From: a virus | Length of the DNA stretch: 41,418 bases | Reading direction: 5' to 3' (one strand) | IMG/VR virus record: IMGVR_UViG_3300027840_000003 | Location: 1 to 41,418 of that record | In this document: positions 1-41,418 of the stretch, piece by piece | Numbering within the stretch: position 1 is the first letter of the stretch | Layout: every line of letters begins with the position of its first letter | Notes under the pieces: generated by a model | Database searches by the model: none | What the model was told of the DNA's origin: nothing | What the model saw: the letters and a program-made list of their open reading frames with translations, nothing else | Translations under genes and position numbers: made by a program

Positions 1-492
1 TGTAGCGTCAAAAGCAGTAACTAGGGCAATCATGTCAGCATCATCGACAGCAGCACCACCAGCGACTGTTGAACCTACTGAGGCATAAAGTCCCATTAAG
101 TCAGCATCGATTTGGCGAGCTAGGCTTTCAGTCATTCTTTCGAAGAAAGCAGCCTTTAAGTCGTAGTTAGATTGAACTTTAGCAATGTCTTCAATAAGAA
201 CACCTACATAGTAGTGCTTGTCAATGTTGAATGAGATTGCAGTTCCATCTGGAGAGTCGAACGTAAGTTGCGTTGAAGCAGCTTTTGCACGAGCATCTAC
301 AGCAGCGACGAAAGGTACACGTAGTATATCTCCGCCACCAGCAACTAGACCTGAGCGGTCTTGTACTAATTTAGCGATTTGTAATTTTTTATCAAATGGT
401 TGTGCGATTTCTCGTGTCCAGACTTCCTGTATATATTGGGCGGTCTGAGCAATGGATTTCGTAACATTCGAAGCGGTTGTTGGAGCAGCCAT
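1..492 (-). CDS. Major capsid protein, N-terminal part (runs off left edge)
   Basis: The first 164 codons of a phage capsid protein, starting at ATG 492 after an AAAAAGGAAAA Shine-Dalgarno; the frame is open to base 1. The N-terminus (NVTKSIAQTAQYIQEVWTRE), followed by a GGGDILRVPF stretch and FNIDKHYYVGVLIEDIAKVQ, is the N-arm and E-loop region of HK97-fold coat proteins of the P22/podovirus 'capsid protein' type. RQIDADLMGLYASVG matches the spine-helix pattern of this family. It follows the scaffold gene, as usual in head modules. The missing C-terminus is probably the 70-residue segment at 41418-41206. Joined directly the two pieces give only 234 residues, short for this family (usually above 300), so some coding sequence is probably absent between the window ends. 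Confidence 0.85.
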   Translation of the reverse strand, partial: MAAPTTASNVTKSIAQTAQYIQEVWTREIAQPFDKKLQIAKLVQDRSGLVAGGGDILRVPFVAAVDARAKAASTQLTFDSPDGTAISFNIDKHYYVGVLIEDIAKVQSNYDLKAAFFERMTESLARQIDADLMGLYASVGSTVAGGAAVDDADMIALVTAFDAT

Positions 493-1407: not shown

Positions 1408-2001
1408 TCACGAAATGTCAGTACCTACCAACATTTCTCTGAGGATAACTATATCCAGTTTCATGTCTTTTTGCAAGCGGCTGTGTTTAGTGCGATTACA
1501 TATAGGATGAGTCAACTGTAGATTATCTAGACTATGTGTACCGTTTCTTGATAGAGGTATTATATGGTCTACTTCGAACTTAAACTCTATTGGTAATCCA
1601 CATATACCACATATACGACTATAATAATTATCTATCGCTCGTATATCAATGATGCTAAAATCTCTATTGTCATTTATTACGCTCTTACGCCTAAGTTGAC
1701 TTAACATTCTCTGATTCTCGTTATACACACGTTCGTGAGAAGAACGATATTTGATACCATAGGACCTGCACTTATCTGGATTATTTAATTTCCATATCCT
1801 ATTATTATTACGTTTACGTTCAGGGTTATTTTCTGACCACCTTTTATCTATTAAAGCCTTCTTAGACCTTTCGATTGGGTCATTACGCCTACGTTCATTA
1901 CGCCTATCTTCGTATAGTTTAACTTTTTCAGCATTCTTAATACGGTATTCTCTAGACCGTATCGCATTTTTAGATTTTGTGTTATTGTTATCTTGCGACA
2001 T
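1408..2001 (-). CDS. HNH endonuclease, free-standing homing type
   Basis: 197 residues. The N-terminal half is a very basic Arg/Lys/Asn-rich helical region (DNA-binding arm). The C-terminal third holds a classic HNH site: zinc-ligand pair CGICG, then FKFEVDHIIPLSRNGTHSLD (His-Ile-Ile core), and LQLTHPICNRTKHS with the last His/Asn. It sits alone between a small head gene and the scaffold gene, with about 100-bp flanks on the scaffold side, which looks like a mobile insertion in the head operon. Start ATG 2001 is preceded by GAAAGGTAAG. No intron boundaries are recognisable, so a free-standing homing endonuclease is the simplest reading. Confidence 0.85.
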   Translation of the reverse strand: MSQDNNNTKSKNAIRSREYRIKNAEKVKLYEDRRNERRRNDPIERSKKALIDKRWSENNPERKRNNNRIWKLNNPDKCRSYGIKYRSSHERVYNENQRMLSQLRRKSVINDNRDFSIIDIRAIDNYYSRICGICGLPIEFKFEVDHIIPLSRNGTHSLDNLQLTHPICNRTKHSRLQKDMKLDIVILREMLVGTDIS

Positions 2002-12362: not shown

Positions 12363-12857
12363 TTATAAAAAGTTATACACCCCAAATTTACCGTATTTTT
12401 TAAATGCTAATTCATCCCATTTCTTAGCGGCTGTGATTTCATCATTAAATGAACCATGATATTTTTTATCAAATACAACAGACCATGTTTTTTTTGATAC
12501 TGCATGAACTCCGATATATTGGTTACTACTATTCTCTCTCTTGTTTCTATTCCAAGCACTTTGCTGTTTAGTGATATATCGTAAATTTATACTTCTATTA
12601 TCAAGTTTATCTCTATTAATATGGTCAATGAACATACCTTCTACTGGATGTAATACTTCATGGTGTAGATATATATATGCTCTTTCGCCTTTTTTCTTTC
12701 CTCTGTTTTCGTGCCTATTAGTGCTTCTGAAAACGTATCCTAAACTATTAACGTGCCATCTATATTGACTAAAATATTCACCATCATAATCACCATCAAC
12801 AAGTGTATATTTACCTTTACCATGTTTTCCAACTAACTTAATTATTTTATATTCCAT
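12363..12857 (-). CDS. HNH homing endonuclease with AP2-like C-terminus
   Basis: 164 residues, antisense to the surrounding early genes. YIYLHHEVLHPVEGMFIDHI and NRDKLDNRSINLRYITKQQS form the HNH site of the intron/phage homing family (HH, DH, N). The C-terminal QYIGVHAVSKKTWSVVFDKK, GSFNDEITAAKKWDELAFKK is the AP2-like DNA-binding domain usually fused to it. Opposite orientation and location in a gap between a promoter/terminator leader and the helicase operon point to a free-standing mobile insertion. ATG 12857 has only a weak ribosome site (AGTGAAAT). Confidence 0.9.
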   Translation of the reverse strand: MEYKIIKLVGKHGKGKYTLVDGDYDGEYFSQYRWHVNSLGYVFRSTNRHENRGKKKGERAYIYLHHEVLHPVEGMFIDHINRDKLDNRSINLRYITKQQSAWNRNKRENSSNQYIGVHAVSKKTWSVVFDKKYHGSFNDEITAAKKWDELAFKKYGKFGVYNFL

Positions 12858-16295: not shown

Positions 16296-16481
16296 ATGAA
16301 ACACATAATATGGCTACTAAAACGGCTAATAGAAAAACAACATCAACGAATACTAAAAGCACTTGAAAGACAACGAGAACAAGAGAAATACTTATCTCGT
16401 GTTATAAGGGAACTAAATCGTGATAAAGCTGGAAATAAAAAAGTTAGACAAACTGTGGAGCCAGAAGATAAGAGAACGTGA
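16296..16481 (+). CDS. 61-residue basic helical protein
   Basis: ATG 16296, no strong ribosome site. Very rich in Arg/Lys/Gln/Glu (KQHQRILKALERQREQEKYL), one long helix. Its last 62 bp overlap the HNH gene in another frame, so one of the two starts may be wrong. Real but unproven. Confidence 0.45.
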   Translation: MKHIIWLLKRLIEKQHQRILKALERQREQEKYLSRVIRELNRDKAGNKKVRQTVEPEDKRT

Positions 16482-16752
16482 TGAGGTATGTCAGGTATGT
16501 GGCAATAGTCAATACTTGAATGCCCACCACGTAATAGGTAGACGCAACCGCAACATCAGATGGGACCTAGATAACGGTATAACCCTATGTTCAGGCTGTC
16601 ATACCTTTAAGACAGAAAGTGCACATCAGGACCCAGCTTGGTTCATGGAGTGGTTCATTAAGAAATATCCAGAACGCTACAACAACATTATGATTAAACG
16701 CATTATAACTAATAAACAACTATACACAGATGTAATCGGGGGACTAGAATGA
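16420..16752 (+). CDS. HNH nuclease with zinc ribbon
   Basis: 110 residues, GTG start. CQVCGNSQYLNAHHVIGRRN, then DNGITLCSGCHTFKTESAHQ, gives two CxxC zinc pairs around an AHH catalytic motif. This resembles compact phage HNH enzymes that sit in replication or recombination operons rather than the homing type (no extra DNA-binding domain). It could trim recombination intermediates. Its TGA overlaps the GroEL ATG (ATGA), so the two are translated together. An alternative is a start further in, since the N-terminal 15 residues overlap the previous gene. Confidence 0.8.
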   Translation: MIKLEIKKLDKLWSQKIRERDEVCQVCGNSQYLNAHHVIGRRNRNIRWDLDNGITLCSGCHTFKTESAHQDPAWFMEWFIKKYPERYNNIMIKRIITNKQLYTDVIGGLE

Positions 16753-18284
16753 TACAAAAAAACCAAGAGACTAGAGCCAACTTACTAAAAGGTATTGAAA
16801 TACTTTATGATGCCGTCAGTACTACTATGGGACCAAAGGGTAGGAATATCCTTATTAAAGATAAACTTGGTCGTTTCTCGGTCACCCACGATGGTGTTAC
16901 TGTCGCTAAAGCAATCAAAGATGATAACCCTGCTATTCAACTAGGCATTGATTTAATTAAAGAGGCTTCTAAAGAGATGGATAAGGTTGGTGACGGAACT
17001 ACTACTGTTACGGTCTTGACTTTTCACCTTATTAAAGGTCTTTATAAACTTATCGACAGGGGTATGAACCCTATGATGATTAAAAGAGAACTAGACTCTC
17101 TAGTAGATGGATTGGTTGAGTTCGTTGAACAGGGTAGCACAAAGATTAATCGCACTTTTGATGATGTCTTTGATGTCGCTAACATCTCTGTAGCTGACCC
17201 AGAACTAGCTAAGATTGTGACTGAACTCGTAGTTGGAACTGGGTATGAAGGTGCTATTAACGTAGAGACCCAAGCAATCAATGAGACTACTGCTGAACTC
17301 GTGGAGGGATATTTACTTCCTAACGGGTATGCTTCTGAGCATTTCATCACTAATCCGACCAGCCGAGAGTGTGTGATTGACAATCCTACAATAATAATAG
17401 TGAACGGTAAGATGGACTCTATGCAGACTTATGACGAGTTATTGGGTAATCTAGTCCAATCTAATAAAAGAGACTTAGTATTTATCACTGAGTCTATCGA
17501 TAATGACCTACTAGCATCACTTATCTATAATAAGATTAAGAACCAGATTCGAGCAGTAGTTATTAAGAATACCTTTGGAATTGAATACGCAGCTGACATG
17601 GCTTCAGTTACTGGAGCAACAGTCTACGAGAAGTTCACTGAGTTTCCAACCGTCGAGATAGTTGGTTCTGCTAAGAAAGTTGTCGTTACCGAAACCGAGA
17701 CTATCATATTTGGTGGGGCTGGCGATAGTTCTAAACGATTAAAAGACTTGACTGCTCAAAATAAAAAGAAACCGTCAGACGTTCTACAGAAACGAATGTC
17801 GGCACTTTCTGGTAAAGTTGGTTCAATCAAAGTTGGTGGAATTACTGAAACTGAAGCTGAAGAAAAGAAATACCGTATAGATGATGCTGTAGCTGCCACA
17901 CGAGCGGCTCTAAAAGGTGGAATCGTCTGTGGGGCTGGTATGACGCTCTACAACGCATCTAGGTCTCAAATGAGTACAAACACTACTAAAGTTGTAAAAG
18001 CCGTTAGAGAGGCTCTACGCAAGCCGAGTGAGACTTTATTGAATAATTCAGGCTATAATCCACGAATATTGAAGAAATTACAAATAGATGAAGGAATAGA
18101 CGTTACGACTGGCGAAACTGTCCAATTACTAGCTAGTGGAATAGTTGACCCTACTATAGTAACTGTAGAAGTTATTAGAAATGCTTTCTCAGTAGCGAGT
18201 CTAGCTATTACAGTCGGTGGTTCAATCATTGATAAGCCTATGACTCAAGAGGAAATCAAGACTATGCTAGAGACACGGCTATGA
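16749..18284 (+). CDS. groEL: GroEL-type group I chaperonin
   Basis: 511 residues, ATG 16749 after GGGGGA. It aligns end to end with bacterial GroEL by eye. Equatorial motifs: MGPKGRN (27-33), HDGV with Asp48, GDGTTT with Asp82 (ATP binding), RIDDAVAATRAA with Asp379 (hydrolysis, E. coli Asp398), and IVDPT near the end. The position of E. coli Asp495 appears to be Ala462. The apical domain EGYLLPNGYASEHFITNP keeps hydrophobic substrate/GroES-binding residues but differs from cellular forms. The C-terminal GGM tail is absent. A functional folding ring is likely; clients are probably phage proteins. A GroES-type partner is encoded at 39811-40074. Confidence 0.97.
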   Translation: MIQKNQETRANLLKGIEILYDAVSTTMGPKGRNILIKDKLGRFSVTHDGVTVAKAIKDDNPAIQLGIDLIKEASKEMDKVGDGTTTVTVLTFHLIKGLYKLIDRGMNPMMIKRELDSLVDGLVEFVEQGSTKINRTFDDVFDVANISVADPELAKIVTELVVGTGYEGAINVETQAINETTAELVEGYLLPNGYASEHFITNPTSRECVIDNPTIIIVNGKMDSMQTYDELLGNLVQSNKRDLVFITESIDNDLLASLIYNKIKNQIRAVVIKNTFGIEYAADMASVTGATVYEKFTEFPTVEIVGSAKKVVVTETETIIFGGAGDSSKRLKDLTAQNKKKPSDVLQKRMSALSGKVGSIKVGGITETEAEEKKYRIDDAVAATRAALKGGIVCGAGMTLYNASRSQMSTNTTKVVKAVREALRKPSETLLNNSGYNPRILKKLQIDEGIDVTTGETVQLLASGIVDPTIVTVEVIRNAFSVASLAITVGGSIIDKPMTQEEIKTMLETRL

Positions 18285-22383: not shown

Positions 22384-23130
22384 TTATACCTTTCGCCAGC
22401 TTGAGAGCCAGTCCTTTAGTTTAATGAACAGTTTGACTATAAAGTCCCATAATGTTTCTTTGGGCGGTTCTACGGGCTTAGGTGGCTCTACAGGAGGTTC
22501 TGGTGGTAATTTACTGCCCTCATTGATAATCGTTGATACGGGTGGTTTAGTAACGTCAGATGCGACTACTCGTTTGACTTCTACTCCGTCGTGTTTGGTA
22601 ACTGTGTAAACTATTTTGCGTTCACCGTCTTTACCCTCTACGACGTTAGTCTTGCCGACTTCTAGTGTAGGGTCTGCCTGTTTAATCGTGTCTCTTAGAA
22701 TAGGTGTAACCTTCGTCTCTGAGACAACATCTTCCCATATAAGAGTCTTAACAGTTCCACAGTATTCACTCCAACCTAAGTATTTACAGCCACCGTTATA
22801 CTTACCATATACAGCGACAATATCATTTAGATTAGGATGAATGTATCCTTGTGGGTGAACACCGCCCTGTGTAGAAGATGCTACCATTCCGTCATCTAAT
22901 GAAATAGCAACGTGTCCCATAGGTTCATTGCCTAGTGAGAAGTAAACAGCAACAGTCTTTCCTTTAGGTGGTGCTTCTGCGTGGTTCTTACCACCGTAGT
23001 TTGCTTGCCATGCCGCAGTTGCGTGTGGATAAGGGTGGTCTGTTCCAAAGGCGTCTTGAACGTATTTTAAGCACCAACCACCTGTGTATGGTACTCGCCA
23101 ATTTGCGTCTCTATTTTGTATCCATCCCAT
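22384..23130 (-). CDS. Endolysin: CHAP amidase/peptidase with G5 domain
   Basis: 248 residues. N-terminal CHAP domain: Cys20 in TGGWCLKYVQDAFG, His73 in GHVAISLDDG, and a final Cys-rich end (GGCKYLGWSEYCG). Residues about 138-206 form a G5 domain (TLEVGKTNVVEGKDGERKIV, then YTVTKHDGVEV). A proline-rich linker then leads to an amphipathic C-terminus (LWDFIVKLFIKLKDWLSSW). CHAP enzymes cut peptidoglycan peptides; G5 is thought to bind wall sugars. No signal peptide, so holin-dependent. Start ATG 23130 overlaps the stop of a 9-codon minigene. Confidence 0.9.
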   Translation of the reverse strand: MGWIQNRDANWRVPYTGGWCLKYVQDAFGTDHPYPHATAAWQANYGGKNHAEAPPKGKTVAVYFSLGNEPMGHVAISLDDGMVASSTQGGVHPQGYIHPNLNDIVAVYGKYNGGCKYLGWSEYCGTVKTLIWEDVVSETKVTPILRDTIKQADPTLEVGKTNVVEGKDGERKIVYTVTKHDGVEVKRVVASDVTKPPVSTIINEGSKLPPEPPVEPPKPVEPPKETLWDFIVKLFIKLKDWLSSWRKV

Positions 23131-28382: not shown

Positions 28383-31300
28383 TTATACTTTACTCTTTGT
28401 CATTTTAACAGTAGGTTTACTTACTTTCGCATAACTTATCTTAAATGGAGTAGTTTTCTTGCTAGATACCTTTGCTTTAGATATAGTTCCACCAGCCGAT
28501 AATGGGACCTTAAACGAAGTTTTCTTACTACCTCCACCGCCATAGCCACCAAATCCCTTACCATACTTTAGTTCTTTATAGACCTTTTCTTCGTCTGACG
28601 TATAGCCGAAAGTGACATTATCCCACATCTCTTTAGAAATAGGTGGTAGCCCTCTAGCCTTACGTTCAGTGTTAGTCCATATTCTCTTATCTTCGCTATA
28701 CTTCTCTTTGTCGGTATTAACAGCATCGTTATAAACAGGTTTAGGACCCTTACCCTCAACAAAGGCAGTATAGGCATCATCATAGGCTTGTTTAGCAGGA
28801 CCTTTAGTAGGGAACTCAGCGGTTTTATGTTTAACCATTTCATCTACGAACTCACCGTCTTTAGCAGGGTAATACTTTTTAGCAGCTGTATCATATTCTT
28901 TCTTTAATTTCTGGTAGGTGTCCCACTCGGAAGAAGTGTACATTCTCTCATCAGCCTCTACGTCATCACCAGGAGCCATAGACTTATTAGCCACTATCTG
29001 GTTCCTAAACTCTTGACTTAATCTATTATCAAACTCTGGTTGGATTGGACTACCTTGACGTTCATTATCTAGTCTTTTCTTCTCGGCAACTAGATTGTAG
29101 AGGTCTGGGTTGTTGGTGTATTCTTTCCATTTATCTTCTGGGAAGTTATAGATAGGTGCTTTCTTGTAGCGTTCAGAGTCCTTATCGAATTCATTAGGCA
29201 CTTTCTCACGCAGTTTATAATAACCAGTTAATCGCTTGTAGGCTTCAGCTTCTTTAGCTGGTAGTGTAGCGGCTACGGAGTCTAGGTATTTCTTTTCCTC
29301 AAAAAAGGCGTTAGTATCTCTAGCATCTTGGGCTTCTTTCTTACCGAACTGTTCGACTTTAATACCAGCTATACGAGCAGCTGCTTGTCCAGGATTTAGT
29401 TTCTTTCCATAGTAGGTTTCATTACCAGTGGCACCAGCTTGGGCTATATCTATCTCATTAGATAGTGGAAGATATGACATTCTAAGGTAGTTCAATCTAT
29501 TTCTAGTCTTTTCAGCTTCAGATAGTGGTTCAGTGAATTGTCCTTTGTTCTCTGGGTCGGCAATACTCTTACCTCTAAAGTCTTGGTCTGTTCCTAACGA
29601 TAGCAGTGGACCTATCATTGGGTCTGACGCAAAGCCTTTGCTATTAAAAGTAGGTTTACCTGTTTCTTGGTCATTTACTATCGGCATCTCAAAAGGAGTT
29701 AATCTATCCATCTCATCACTTCCGCCAGTAAGATTATTGTAAGTAGATACACCCATTAAACGAGAACCGTTGATAGCACCCCAAGGCGTTTGCATCTCTA
29801 AACTAATATCCGTAAATGGTAGTCTAGGAGCCCCGACACGACCCTCACGAGTCTTTCGGTCCTCTTCGTCTTCACCTGATAGTTTACTCATAGCAGCAGT
29901 TAATACTACCCAAGCACCTATCATACCTGCAGCTCTTGCTGGGTTGTCTATGGCTGTGTTCATACCAGTCCTGATAAGTTCTGAGCTGAACCTACCGAAT
30001 GGTTTACCAAAGACAGGAACTTTAGCACCTATATCAAATGATTTACCAACCATATCATAGTTCTGAAGCATACGAGCAGTCCTATAAGAAGACTCTTGTG
30101 GACTTAATCCTCTTTCTCTTAATGTAAGATAAGCTGCCATTTTAGCCTCATCATCTACTGCCTGGTAAGATTCGGTTAATACCTTCTTACCCTTCTGGAA
30201 CCAGTTTCCACCAGCATCATCTATACCTTTAGTGCGGTAGAGTTCTTTCTCGACGAAGTTAGAACCGAATATACCCTGTTCAACAGCTTCACGATATTCA
30301 GGCGAAGTAGATTTAATCATCTTACGACCCCTTACATAGTTCTTTGTAAAGGTAATTGGGTTAATTCCATTTAATGAAGTGACTAAGTAGTTAAAAGTTC
30401 TGTTTCCTAGACGAACACCTGGGTTCATGACAGTAAGCATCATCTTGCGACCTCTACGGAGTGGTAGTCTGTCATACATATTAAGTAGAGCCATTGAGTG
30501 TTGTGCAACTGTTGTCTCGTAGATAAATCCTTGTAAGTTCTCTAATTGCTCTTTAACGACATACTTACCAGCGATACCAGCGTAGGCTTTACTCTCTGGA
30601 ACCTTTACATATCCTGAGCGTGGTTCATCTATAGCGTCTTTAGCTAGGAAATCTGTGTATTGTTTAACAGCTTTATTTCTCTCATATTGTTGAACTCTTA
30701 GAGCAACTAAGAAGTCGGGGTCAGTAGTGGCTTTAGCGACTAATTCATCTTTGAACTTCGATAGGTCTTTCTTCCTCTTGAAGATGTTAAGTTCTAATCC
30801 AGAGTCTTTACCTATCTGTTTAACCATATCGTCATCAAAGAAGTCATCAAAACTTCTAGGCATATAAGTGCCTTTATTCTCTTCGTAGGCGACATCATCT
30901 AGAAAACCTAAGTTATGTTGACCTTCGTGGGTTAGGTCTAGTATCTTCCTTAGTTTAGTAGCGTGGTCTATCTCGGCTTGAGTATAGTCTTTTACTTCAA
31001 CGCCCATCTTCTTGTAGAGTTCTGGGTCTAATAAACTATGAACAGCGTCTTGTCTAGAACCATCAGTATAGAACTTCTTACCTTCTTGGGCGATTGTACG
31101 AGCCATAATATCACCCATCTTCTGAGTTCCGTGATAAGCAGCAGCGTTCCTTAACTCTGCGTCTGTCTGTCCTAGTTGACGTGTAATCGAGTTAAGAGCA
31201 ACACCTGGGGCTCTGAGTAATCTATTACCAGATTTTAGAGATGATTCGATAAGAAAGTTTATACCTCTTTCAATCGGTTTAGTTAGTTTCCTAGTAAGAT

Positions 31301-37161: not shown

Positions 37162-39546
37162 CTACGTTATTGTTGACCTGACGAGATTCGCCCAAGTGTT
37201 CTTTGATATATTTCTTGCCATCATATCGGCAGGGTTTGTTCCAATGTTAGTTAAGTTTGTAACTGTCGTAACTGTAGTAACAGCTGGTAGAGTAGCACTA
37301 CCTGTAATTGATACAGGAACTGAGTTGTTTATATCTGAAGTGTTACCTCTACCACCGACAATTTCTGTAACTAAGCGTGTATAGTCCATTAACCGAGTGA
37401 AGTGAACCCTAACATCTGTTCGTCTGAAACAAGCACCACCTGTTGCGATTGAACCAAAGTCAGCACCGACAGATTCTAATTCAAGTGTAGAGGTAGAAAC
37501 CCTTAACACTTTATACGCACCATCATATTGTGCGGCAGCACCAGTCATACCCCACAACTGCATATATTCACCTGGTAGTGGAGTCGCCCAAGTCGCACTT
37601 CCTATTACTGTTAGGATATTATTTGACCTTGAGATGCTTTGAATAGCTACTGTAGTTAAAGCACCTGGGGCAGTTGCACTTCCATTTACTAGGTAAACAA
37701 CTCCGCCATTAGAAGTTGTCGTGCTTGATGTTCCTATAACACAAGTAAACGTAGTTGGAGTTGGAGTGCTACCTACTACTACTGCTGTTGTTAAGTTAGG
37801 AAAGGCAGTTGCCGCTTGGTTTAATACTCCGTAAATCTGCACAAAATCACCAACAGTTAGTCCATGATTGACATCTGTCGTAACTGTCGCTGTGGTTGAA
37901 CCAGTCTTAGCAATAGTCGTAATTCTTCCGACTGGAACAGTTAAGTTCTTGAGGTTCTTTGCCCTTATGCGTATCTTATAACTTACTTCTTCATCAGGTA
38001 TTCCCTGTGTCCACTTTTGAATACCAGACATTGTAGCAAGTCCATCAGCACCGAATGACCTCATACCTATTTCTTCAAGTGAACCATATAATTCTTGGTT
38101 TGCGGCACTTATAAAAGCATCTGAATAAGGTGAAGTAGCAGCCTGCGTAGCTGTAGTTGTAGCGATAGTTGAGTTTAGTAACCTAAATGAACCACCATTT
38201 CGTCTTGTAACGAATGAGCCGTTAGTTACTGTAGCATTTTCAAGTAGTAGAGATGTTCCGTTCTCTGCGTAGTCAAGTGGGTCAGCCCATCTTATTTTTC
38301 CACCAGTTGTATTATACGACGCTACTGCAAGAGTAATAGGAACTGAAATAGTCGTGGCGTTTACGACTGTAACAATAACAGGTCCAGCATTTACCCTTGA
38401 GTCATAACACCCATAAAGAACTACCCTATCACCACCATGAAATGAATGTGGGGTAGCAAAGACAATCGGACAAGTGTTAGCTGTGGCAACAGTAACAGAT
38501 GCTGGCATATCAACATCAGCAATAGGAGTGATAGTCTTGACTGCGTTATTAGCATCAACCCCGACAAGTTCTAATCCGACTTCTTGACCAAGAATCCTCT
38601 GTGAAGTTGTTATTCCGAATCCTGCCCTGAATGGCATACTGAATGTATCTTTAGTCGTTATAGATACACTTGAGTCTTGTAGAAAAGGCGAGAGAGAAAT
38701 CCTTAAGTATCCTGATGAGAACGTGTTACCACCTTGAGTAACGATATGTCCTGTAGCAGTCGTATTGTCGTTGACGTAATCCCAAACGGTTGAGTCTGGT
38801 TGAGTAATGTCCATACGAGAGAATCCATCACGAAACTTCTTCTTGGCGTTTCCGACGATTACTTTTCCGTAGGCTGATAGACTTGTATTGGTTGAATCTA
38901 CTAATTGAGTTTTCTGTGTTCCATTAGTTTGATTGGCGGAAGTAGACACACCAGCAACACTTACGTTAGTTGGACCTTGTGGCTTCATTCTAGTAGCTGT
39001 ATCGATAGAATCTAACTTACCAGAAACTTCAGTCAATACATCTAATAATGGAGAAAGGTCATTTTCAGGAATTTCCATAGTAGGCATTGATTTGATGGCT
39101 TTGTCAAAAGCGGCTGGAATATCTTTTTTAAGGACCTTTTCAATCCCCCGTAGGTCAATGTCGGGGACGGAAACATCAACCTTTGGGGAATCAACTCGAA
39201 TATTGGGTTTGAACTCAGGTTTCATGTCTATTTTATCTATAGATTTAGCGAATTCGCTTTGAAGGGCATTCAGAGCCTCTACAACAGGTTTTGCGTAATC
39301 AGGGATAGTTATATCATCTTTTGCGTTAAAAGCCTCTAGAGAGCCTCTCATGTCCAATAAAATCGCACCTAAGTCTTTTGAAAATGCTTTTCCGTCTTTA
39401 GACTGCTCTGCGAGCGTATTTGACATGTCTTCAACAATAAGACCAATATCTTCGAGCATTTTAGCAGAACGGAACTCAGGTTTGTTCTGTTCCCATTTAA
39501 TAAGTTTGTCCTGTAGGTCTTTTGGAAGTTTGTTTGTGTTTGGCAT
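37162..39546 (-). CDS. Large virion protein with three tandem beta repeats
   Basis: 794 residues, ATG 39546 after AAGGAAAAAACAAA. The N-terminal 190 residues are helical and charged (a stalk). The rest is beta-rich, with three related units at about 365-415, 530-615 and 620-680, each with the pattern of a strand, an H(S/G)-GD-V-YG turn and a GG end: HSFHGGDRVVLYGCYDSR, HGLTVGDFVQIYGVLNQ, GEYMQLWGMTGAAAQ. Such repeats are typical of phage tail spikes/fibres. It probably forms an external tail appendage. Confidence 0.65.
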   Translation of the reverse strand: MPNTNKLPKDLQDKLIKWEQNKPEFRSAKMLEDIGLIVEDMSNTLAEQSKDGKAFSKDLGAILLDMRGSLEAFNAKDDITIPDYAKPVVEALNALQSEFAKSIDKIDMKPEFKPNIRVDSPKVDVSVPDIDLRGIEKVLKKDIPAAFDKAIKSMPTMEIPENDLSPLLDVLTEVSGKLDSIDTATRMKPQGPTNVSVAGVSTSANQTNGTQKTQLVDSTNTSLSAYGKVIVGNAKKKFRDGFSRMDITQPDSTVWDYVNDNTTATGHIVTQGGNTFSSGYLRISLSPFLQDSSVSITTKDTFSMPFRAGFGITTSQRILGQEVGLELVGVDANNAVKTITPIADVDMPASVTVATANTCPIVFATPHSFHGGDRVVLYGCYDSRVNAGPVIVTVVNATTISVPITLAVASYNTTGGKIRWADPLDYAENGTSLLLENATVTNGSFVTRRNGGSFRLLNSTIATTTATQAATSPYSDAFISAANQELYGSLEEIGMRSFGADGLATMSGIQKWTQGIPDEEVSYKIRIRAKNLKNLTVPVGRITTIAKTGSTTATVTTDVNHGLTVGDFVQIYGVLNQAATAFPNLTTAVVVGSTPTPTTFTCVIGTSSTTTSNGGVVYLVNGSATAPGALTTVAIQSISRSNNILTVIGSATWATPLPGEYMQLWGMTGAAAQYDGAYKVLRVSTSTLELESVGADFGSIATGGACFRRTDVRVHFTRLMDYTRLVTEIVGGRGNTSDINNSVPVSITGSATLPAVTTVTTVTNLTNIGTNPADMMARNISKNTWANLVRSTIT

Positions 39547-39569: not shown

Positions 39570-39824
39570 CTAAACCCAACGGACTGCTCTTGCAACTTGT
39601 TCAGCGTCTAGTAAGACTTCGTAGTCATCAACTATTAACTTAAATATCAAGTCCTTATCGGCATCGTCATTTAGACTGCGTTCCATAACTACATGATGTT
39701 TAAGTGAATAATCTCTTAGTTGGTATCTAGTGTTCTCGTGCTGTTGTTTAGTAGGGTCGTTCTCATTAAGGACAGTCATATCCTTTAATGTTAAATCACC
39801 TCGGTCTAACTTAGATTTTCTCAT
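39570..39824 (-). CDS. 84-residue protein after GroES
   Basis: Overlaps the GroES stop by 14 bp. The N-terminus is polar (KSKLDRGDLTLKDMTVLNEN), and the C-terminal FKLIVDDYEVLLDAEQVARA looks beta/helix. It could be linked to the chaperonin or to virion assembly through shared translation; no family recognised. Confidence 0.55.
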   Translation of the reverse strand: MRKSKLDRGDLTLKDMTVLNENDPTKQQHENTRYQLRDYSLKHHVVMERSLNDDADKDLIFKLIVDDYEVLLDAEQVARAVRWV

Positions 39825-40074
39825 TTAAGATACCAAATATGTTAGTTTCTCTACATAGTCGTTCATCATCTTCTAATATAATAGAAGCATATCTCTCAAA
39901 TTGGATTCTATCACCTACGGCTACACTCTTAACTTCTGGACCAACAGCAATAACTGTTCCAGTAGGTGGAAGCGACTTCCAAGCCTCAACTATAAACAGA
40001 CCTGAAGATGTTTTCTCTTTAACTGGGTCCACTTTAACAAGAACTAAATCTCGAAGGGGTTGAATTGTATTCAT
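39811..40074 (-). CDS. groES: GroES-type co-chaperonin (Cpn10)
   Basis: 87 residues. MNTIQPLRDLVLVKVDPVKE, KTSSGLFIVEAWKSLPPTGT and VIAVGPEVKSVAVGDRIQFE give the Cpn10 barrel start, the mobile loop with its hydrophobic LFI tripeptide, and the VGPG-like and GDR-F signatures. The C-terminus is short and normal. The mobile loop contacts the apical domain of GroEL. The phage GroEL at 16749 is its expected partner, though host GroEL could also be used. It lies in the late arm behind a terminator hairpin, and the ATG has no good ribosome site, so its expression may be limited by read-through. Confidence 0.93.
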   Translation of the reverse strand: MNTIQPLRDLVLVKVDPVKEKTSSGLFIVEAWKSLPPTGTVIAVGPEVKSVAVGDRIQFERYASIILEDDERLCRETNIFGILNEKI

Positions 40075-40088
40075 GTATTCAGAGTACC

Positions 40089-40115
40089 AAAAAAGCCTCC
40101 TGAAATCAAGAGGCT
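40089..40115 (-). terminator. Intrinsic terminator after the virion gene at 40137
   Basis: Read on the minus strand: AGCCTC, 10-nt loop, GAGGCT, then TTTTT (plus-strand AAAAAA at 40089-40094). A compact stem and T-run between the end of the 40137 gene and the GroES start. It should cut much of the capsid transcript before GroES. Confidence 0.8.
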
Positions 40116-40136
40116 CAATTGTACACTTAGCTCAAA

Positions 40137-41081
40137 CTAAATGTGATTTTTGTCACCACTAATACCAGCAGAACCACCATAAGTAGTTGTTGCAGGAGTG
40201 ATAACTTTGCTTACACCGTTTACCATAATTGTGCTTGTCCATGAAAGGGTAGCAGCAGATACAGTTGTTGGGATGTCAGCATTAAGGATAGAGAAGTCAC
40301 GACTGTTAACAACCTGTTGTGTAGCAGAGTTTGTCGTAGCAGTAACTTTCTCGTGAGGACCTGTATTACTTGAGTAAACAGTTCCAGCACCAGCACCGTT
40401 GTCTATAGCGACTTTGAAGTTATCCAAGAAAGCAGCACCGTTAGCTGTTGAGCCGATTAAGACTTCATCAGCAACTGGGTCTACACCACCTTCTAGGTGG
40501 ACTTCACCCCAAGAACCAGCAGCAACTTCACTTGTAAGAGCAGCATTACCAATGACACCAACTTTATCGTAAGTTACGACACAAGTTGTAGCGTCAGAAG
40601 ATACTGAACTTACTCGTGGGTGAGCGACAGTTCCTAGACCATAGTTAGTACCAGCAGTAGCACCAGCATCGATGGCAAGAGCCAAGTTAGCTAGAGATTC
40701 AGTAGCACTTGCACCGACTAATACAGCGTATGGTTGTTCTAATGTAGCTGAGATAGCATCAAAATAGGTATATGTAATACCATCAATTGTGATAGTCTCG
40801 CCAGCAACAGCAGTTGAAGCATTGGTATAAGTACCAGTTGCTTTAGTTTCTGTTAGAGCAGTTTTAGCTGTATATGTGCGACCACCAACAGTGACTGTAT
40901 CACCATCAGTAGCAGCAGTAGCGTTGCTTGTTAATGTACTTGTTGCAATGACACCTGTTTGAGCAGTTGCATTCTTCTCCATGAAGAGAATCTTTTGTTC
41001 TAATTTTGAGTCATTTGGGTAAGATGCGACAGCTATGCCGACAGCATTTGCCCGTGTGACTAATTCATTCCTTGAAGGCAT
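40137..41081 (-). CDS. Virion protein with repeated beta modules, next to the capsid gene
   Basis: 314 residues, ATG 41081 after AAAGGAAAATAT. A short helical N-terminus (SYPNDSKLEQKILFMEKNA) is followed by beta modules. Module 1, GETITIDGITYTYFD to the HPRVSSVSS region, matches the 34316 protein (LANLALAIDAGATAGTNYGL, KVGVIGNAALTSEVAAGSWG). A shortened copy, FLDNFKVAIDNGAGAGTVYS with GPHEKVTATT, follows. Directly after the capsid gene, so probably a capsid decoration or tail protein; exact role unknown. Confidence 0.65.
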   Translation of the reverse strand: MPSRNELVTRANAVGIAVASYPNDSKLEQKILFMEKNATAQTGVIATSTLTSNATAATDGDTVTVGGRTYTAKTALTETKATGTYTNASTAVAGETITIDGITYTYFDAISATLEQPYAVLVGASATESLANLALAIDAGATAGTNYGLGTVAHPRVSSVSSDATTCVVTYDKVGVIGNAALTSEVAAGSWGEVHLEGGVDPVADEVLIGSTANGAAFLDNFKVAIDNGAGAGTVYSSNTGPHEKVTATTNSATQQVVNSRDFSILNADIPTTVSAATLSWTSTIMVNGVSKVITPATTTYGGSAGISGDKNHI

Positions 41082-41205: not shown

Positions 41206-41418
41206 TTAAGGAGCAGTAGTTCGTGTTAGAGCAATGAAGCTACCAGCACGTTCAACACCAGTTCCGTAGATAGTGTGAAGAGCAGTCAACCAACCTAGGT
41301 CTCGGACTGAGTATTCTGTTTCCATCTTTGGAGCCTGTTGTACAGCTTTAGAAAGAGCAAGTTTGTGGAAGAATAGGTTACGACCCGTAGTGTCGGTTAC
41401 GACAGTGTTAGAGTGGTA
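41206..41418 (-). CDS. Major capsid protein, C-terminal part (runs off right edge)
   Basis: 70 codons plus TAA. FFHKLALSKAVQQAPKMETE and RDLGWLTALHTIYGTGVERA, ending GSFIALTRTTAP, form the C-terminal P-domain/axial part of P22-like and related podovirus coat proteins (the 'alsfhk-A-----p---' pattern). It is the continuation of the gene at 1-492 across the window ends; 213 nt ends in frame with the other piece. A middle segment of perhaps 100 residues seems absent. Confidence 0.85.
   Translation of the reverse strand, partial: YHSNTVVTDTTGRNLFFHKLALSKAVQQAPKMETEYSVRDLGWLTALHTIYGTGVERAGSFIALTRTTAP

Follow-up and report, generated by a model that had tools for sequence, protein, structure and literature searches.

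The window, by which we mean the whole stretch of viral DNA that was analysed (41,418 nucleotides, IMG/VR record IMGVR_UViG_3300027840_000003), encodes both halves of a group I chaperonin. As the first-pass annotation had stated, GroEL and GroES lie in opposite arms, and profile, PHROG and structure-model matches bear out both assignments (Table 1). The GroES reading frame, whose limits it had given exactly, matches Pfam Cpn10 (E=3.8e-12; 46.5 bits against a cut-off of 21.1) and phrog_3188, "co-chaperonin GroES" (E=6.9e-14). It has the GroES beta-barrel fold in addition to the Cpn10 profile; the top PDB match of its AlphaFold2 model (pLDDT 88.6) is the GroES of a GroEL-GroES complex (E 4e-7). 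GroEL matches Pfam Cpn60 (E=1.3e-50), phrog_5725 (E=1.8e-104) and PDB entries, and combines the Cpn60 profile with the three-domain fold of group I chaperonins, to which all top PDB matches of its model (pLDDT 86.0) belong. It is ~31% identical to E. coli GroEL, as compared with 22% reported for the chaperonin of phage EL. A related contig, L002, carries at the same location a GroES that is 94% identical to that of the window. The two genes differ by 18.0 synonymous and 7.0 non-synonymous changes (dS 0.37, dN 0.036, dN/dS ~0.10), indicating that the window GroES is a selected gene under purifying selection. GroES and GroEL are thus both genuine genes and, judging from their sequences, both halves are probably functional.

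Table 1. Features of the chaperonin loci and their surroundings in the window.
Feature	Position	Strand	Basis
GroES/Cpn10 co-chaperonin, 87 aa, mobile loop around KTSSGLFIVEAW, without roof hairpin	39811..40074	-	Pfam, PHROG, AlphaFold2, L002 homologue
GroEL/Cpn60, 511 aa, without GGM tail	16749..18284	+	Pfam, PHROG, PDB, AlphaFold2
HNH endonuclease gene, 4-nt overlap with GroEL start	16420..16752	+	Pfam HNH E=7e-8, phrog_5034
Putative promoter: extended -10-like TGGTACTCTG, 15 nt before GroES ATG	40080..40089	-
Intrinsic terminator-like hairpin and T run between decoration-like gene and GroES; loop holds possible -35 (TTGATT)	40089..40116	-
314-aa decoration-like virion gene, upstream border of chaperonin slot	40137..41081	-	sequence and synteny; function inferred from position
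84-aa conserved gene (w39570), overlaps GroES end, downstream border of slot	39570..39824	-	conserved beside GroES in relatives
Virion-arm gene (w37162) downstream of slot; N-terminal ~200 aa conserved in relatives	37162..39546	-	synteny
Major capsid gene, 3' part	41206..41418	-	L002 intact homologue is major head protein, phrog_267 E=1.8e-29
Major capsid gene, 5' part	1..492	-	window-end reading, L002 comparison

The record is classed as linear and both of its ends fall inside the major capsid gene. The reading frame across the ends is open and ~55 codons shorter than the intact capsid gene of L002. With both ends in one gene and only ~55 codons missing, the genome is near complete at ~41.6 kb, and GroES is placed two genes downstream of the capsid gene. 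Plus-arm genes include an HNH gene, a DnaB-like helicase and a nuclease-like gene with a weak match; TerL, the portal, the major capsid protein and further virion proteins are encoded in the minus arm. From this gene content, the plus arm would be early and the minus arm late. Contig G049, essentially identical to the window across its 16 kb, confirms the two divergent arms; it ends before GroEL, and the GroEL position is therefore known from one assembly. Three HNH endonuclease genes are present in the window (1408-2001 and 12363-12857 on the minus strand, and the one that overlaps the GroEL start). A lysin-like protein with a G5 domain (22384-23130, minus strand) perhaps hints at the host cell wall type. 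Neither tRNAs nor Rfam matches were found in the window.

The mobile loop of the window GroES, SSGLFIVE, lines up with AGGIVLTG in the E. coli protein and has the hydrophobic tripeptide LFI in place of IVL. The roof hairpin, which comprises residues 44-58 of E. coli GroES, occurs in bacterial GroES and is not needed for membership of the Cpn10 family. It is absent from the window GroES, which is ~9 residues shorter than E. coli GroES there, and about nine residues are missing at this position from all GroES proteins of the phage family. T4 gp31 is without roof loops, and the capsid protein gp23 depends on it to fold on host GroEL (PMC6318259). The window GroES resembles gp31 as a roofless, phage-encoded lid of the Cpn10 fold; the two share a Pfam family, and the fold match between them is weak (rank 34, E 0.012). 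On the other hand, the window GroES has 87 residues versus 111 in gp31, it shows no lengthening of the mobile loop compared with E. coli GroES, it adjoins the capsid genes, and its genome also encodes GroEL. By analogy with gp31, capsid folding is the most likely role of the window GroES, and its gene does lie close to the capsid gene.

Mapping of the window GroEL to E. coli GroEL shows that the ATPase residues D52, D87 and D398 are conserved and that the helix H/I groove is mostly hydrophobic (L237, L259, V263I, V264Y, N265), with L234D as the exception. At the inter-ring positions R452, E461, S463 and V464, the window protein has E, N, R and I, and other GroELs of the family likewise diverge there. 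These are the positions altered in the single-ring mutant SR1 (R452E, E461A, S463A, V464A) (PMC5653362), and it is possible that the window GroEL forms a single ring. Phages EL, OBP and AR9 also encode GroEL homologues, which are single-ring or ring-separating chaperonins, and those of EL and OBP are reported to be independent of a co-chaperonin (PMC7185714, PMC5934643, PMC9598537); in the comparison with these chaperonins, it is the inter-ring residues of the window GroEL that are altered. The GroELs of the window and of contigs G048 and G065 end in a common MTQ-containing segment rather than a GGM tail, and this segment is a helix in the window model.

About 30 related viral contigs were gathered through searches with TerL, capsid and GroES; a search of viral contigs with the window GroEL protein as the lone query gave no matches. 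The gene order TerL-portal-scaffold-capsid-decoration-slot-w39570-w37162 is mostly kept among these relatives. In G052, TerL and its neighbour w5914 (28526-30639) are inverted relative to the portal and capsid genes, unlike in other relatives. Counting the window, 21 distinct contigs cover the slot, which is bounded by the capsid/decoration genes on one side and w39570/w37162 on the other; 18 of these contigs carry GroES, which is always in the slot. It stands alone in ten (window, L002, G047, G048, G052, G053, G059, G064, G068, L160), follows GroEL in seven (G045, G056, L165, L168, L169, L172, G074) and precedes GroEL in one (G070), while the slot of the remaining three (G051, G062, L107) is without either chaperonin gene. 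In bacterial genomes, the TerL query, used as a host search, found no matches and the GroES query found four loci. Two of these are ordinary bacterial GroES genes adjoining GroEL (Bdellovibrionales and Syntrophaceae MAGs) and the other two are short matches in Rhodopirellula.

The position of GroEL varies in the family, while the slot is conserved. Besides the slot cassettes, GroEL is found in G048 and G065 between a TerS-like gene and w5914/TerL (41-42% identical to the window GroEL), and in MW202497, a more distant relative (TerL 36%), between TerL and portal. A plus-arm GroEL is seen only in the window among the relatives compared, and the equivalent plus-arm stretch of G054, from HNH to phosphoesterase, is without GroEL. 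A conserved form of the timing that the first-pass annotation had proposed, ring early and lid late, is therefore not supported by the relatives: their GroEL lies beside GroES, elsewhere in the late arm, or was not found. Co-occurrence of the pair in related contigs is seen in some of them, namely the slot cassettes and G048, and the same split was not seen in relatives. Contigs with one gene only, which together with a loop fitting only the host GroEL were to refute the split system, do occur: profile searches and tblastn detected no GroEL on G047 (33.8 kb), G052 (40.8 kb), G059 and G068 (29.4 kb each), all of which have GroES, and no Cpn10 match was found in MW202497. The contigs on which GroEL was not found are classed as linear and a missing piece could hold it; G052, however, comes close to the window genome in length.

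Phylogenetic analysis points to repeated movement of these modules. In the TerL+portal+MCP tree (31 rows), the window is nearest to L002 and G044 and then to G052, the backbone neighbour in which GroES is present and GroEL was not detected. The GroELs of the family fall on one side of a starred branch, separated from 89 other viral and bacterial GroELs, a placement to be read with caution given the long branches, and those nearest to the window GroEL are the GroELs of G048 and G065. Given the long branches in the family GroEL group, the window GroEL may have come by relocation or by separate acquisition. A starred group of seven GroES proteins, type B, corresponds exactly to the contigs with an adjoining GroEL-B. 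The TerL+portal+MCP backbone rejects these seven phages as a clade (p-AU 1e-5), indicating that the GroEL-GroES cassette moves between backbones. The three states of the slot (GroEL-GroES, GroES only, neither) require at least eight changes on the backbone tree. The varying positions of GroEL among the relatives likewise imply that lid and barrel separate repeatedly.

The region upstream of GroES contains a putative control element (Table 1). It is compact, the T run of the terminator-like hairpin leading into the extended -10 and the hairpin loop carrying the possible -35; the putative -10 is so near the start codon that a transcript from it would be practically leaderless. A strong hairpin with T run precedes GroES in all eleven contigs in which GroES is first in the slot and in none of the seven in which GroEL precedes it. 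Eight of the eleven, and again none of the seven, have an extended -10-like TGnTAnnnT 14-45 nt upstream of the ATG; since both patterns were picked after the GroES regions had been viewed, these counts are descriptive and do not constitute a pre-planned test. As a control, thirteen other gene families of the late arm were examined in the same contigs, giving 185 upstream regions. The hairpin was scored in two of them, both before the decoration-like gene, and the -10-like pattern in twelve (e.g., portal 3/16, w27477 3/6), which makes the latter weaker evidence than the hairpin. In the type B cassettes the hairpin stands before GroEL: it was scored in the four that were scored (G056, L165, L168, L169) and is apparent by eye in the other three. 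A hairpin and T sequence can also be made out by eye in the three contigs that lack GroES, between w39570 and the genes on the capsid side. The idea that the terminator-promoter element is a chaperonin-specific mark was dropped in view of this similar boundary, which more likely marks the border of a transcription unit. From its sequence and distribution, the boundary is probably where a second late transcription unit begins, headed by GroES or by the GroEL-GroES cassette. With an apparent terminator-promoter boundary of its own, the place of GroES between virion genes is no proof that it is co-expressed with them.

It is known that some phages have both GroEL and GroES genes (PMC7185714). Bacteroides phage SJC03, Flavobacterium phage immuto and Cellulophaga phage phi40:1 resemble the window in this respect, but their genes lie side by side, or nearly so, on one strand, whereas those of the window are split. 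GroEL and Cpn10 are ~7-136 kb apart in the Vibrio phages Va1, SD25, D506, 2.275.O and GR28A, and those of SD25 and D506 are on opposite strands, as in the window. These genomes differ from that of the window in their large size (145-349 kb) and unrelated placement of the genes, and their Cpn10 was called by Pfam profile only. The GroEL of Va1 (L192, 1974-3554) lies between the genes for tail sheath gp18 and tail tube gp19. In a non-random sample of 50 records drawn by GroEL similarity, GroEL is present in 46 and Cpn10 accompanies it in 32 of these; the pair lies within ~1.2 kb on one strand in 30 of the 32 and is split in two, G011 (L036), where the genes are on opposite strands 36 kb apart, and G018 (L049). 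The placement in the window is one of several within its phage family, and split pairs are already known elsewhere. The suggestion of a new kind of split chaperonin system is not supported, given the five Vibrio phages and the two surveyed viral records.

We consider it reasonably probable that GroES is a roofless co-chaperonin of the T4 gp31 type at a fixed slot and that GroEL is an optional, separable partner. The slot lies at the junction of the capsid and later virion genes, where GroES is probably transcribed from its own promoter behind the terminator. The protein most likely caps a GroEL ring, either the phage's own or the host's, and capping would let virion proteins, the capsid protein foremost, fold. 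Within the family, GroEL either forms a cassette with GroES in the slot, stands apart at another site or is undetectable, and that of the window would have reached the replication arm, behind the HNH gene, by insertion or relocation. The split would then not be an evolved timer but the outcome of reshuffling between two modules that can be separated. These ~41 kb phages form a natural experiment, in which the roofless lid keeps its slot and the barrel is exchanged, relocated or absent; the family allows one to ask what is gained from a phage GroEL over that of the host, and whether the two halves evolve together.

Other explanations were weighed against this one. Opposite placement as an artefact of a chimeric assembly is very improbable: a single assembly of a record classed as linear covers GroEL and the identical G049 stops short of it, but GroEL overlaps the reading frames on both sides by 4 nt, its base composition is similar (40% G+C), and its nearest relatives belong to the same phage family. 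In another scenario, GroES serves host GroEL alone, as gp31 does, and the phage GroEL acts without a lid on other substrates, perhaps as a single ring. The retention of GroES in relatives without detectable GroEL, the residues at the four SR1-mutated positions (PMC5653362) and the lack of interaction of the phage EL chaperonin with E. coli GroES (PMC7185714) are in keeping with it. However, the largely hydrophobic helix H/I groove of the window GroEL and the family GroES encoded directly with a same-family GroEL in G045, G056 and others make it unlikely.

The proposal of the first-pass annotation, a dedicated and self-sufficient phage chaperonin that times capsid folding through an early ring and a late lid, draws on two intact genes in divergent arms of replication and virion content, on the kept ATPase residues of GroEL and on LFI in the GroES mobile loop. 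Against it, an early-arm GroEL occurs in one genome only, relatives having a late-arm, adjoining or undetected GroEL, and GroES apparently has a promoter-like element of its own. We regard this proposal as improbable, and as a hypothesis it concerns one family member only. No finding favours a dedicated timed system over a lid that is separable and caps whatever ring is available. A staged, dedicated pair in this phage alone is possible, the window GroEL being intact. A further thought, and a long shot, is a self-contained chamber for capsid folding in which the roofless lid joins a naturally single-ring GroEL, as the SR1-like inter-ring residues would suggest; separate promoters would set the ratio or timing of the two halves independently.

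Two kinds of interrupted gene were observed among the relatives. The GroEL reading frame of G045 (L144; 1431-3959, minus strand) has 842 codons, and its phosphate loop GDG/TTT is interrupted by ~320 residues that contain a LAGLIDADG_3 domain and show similarity to terminase/helicase families. From its sequence, the insert in this phage GroEL resembles an intein; a search of the literature turned up no paper on inteins in GroEL. The TerL matches in G064, G074/G075 and L116 are interrupted near the N-terminal region, with gaps of several hundred bases, and the pattern suggests inteins or inserts in these genes too.
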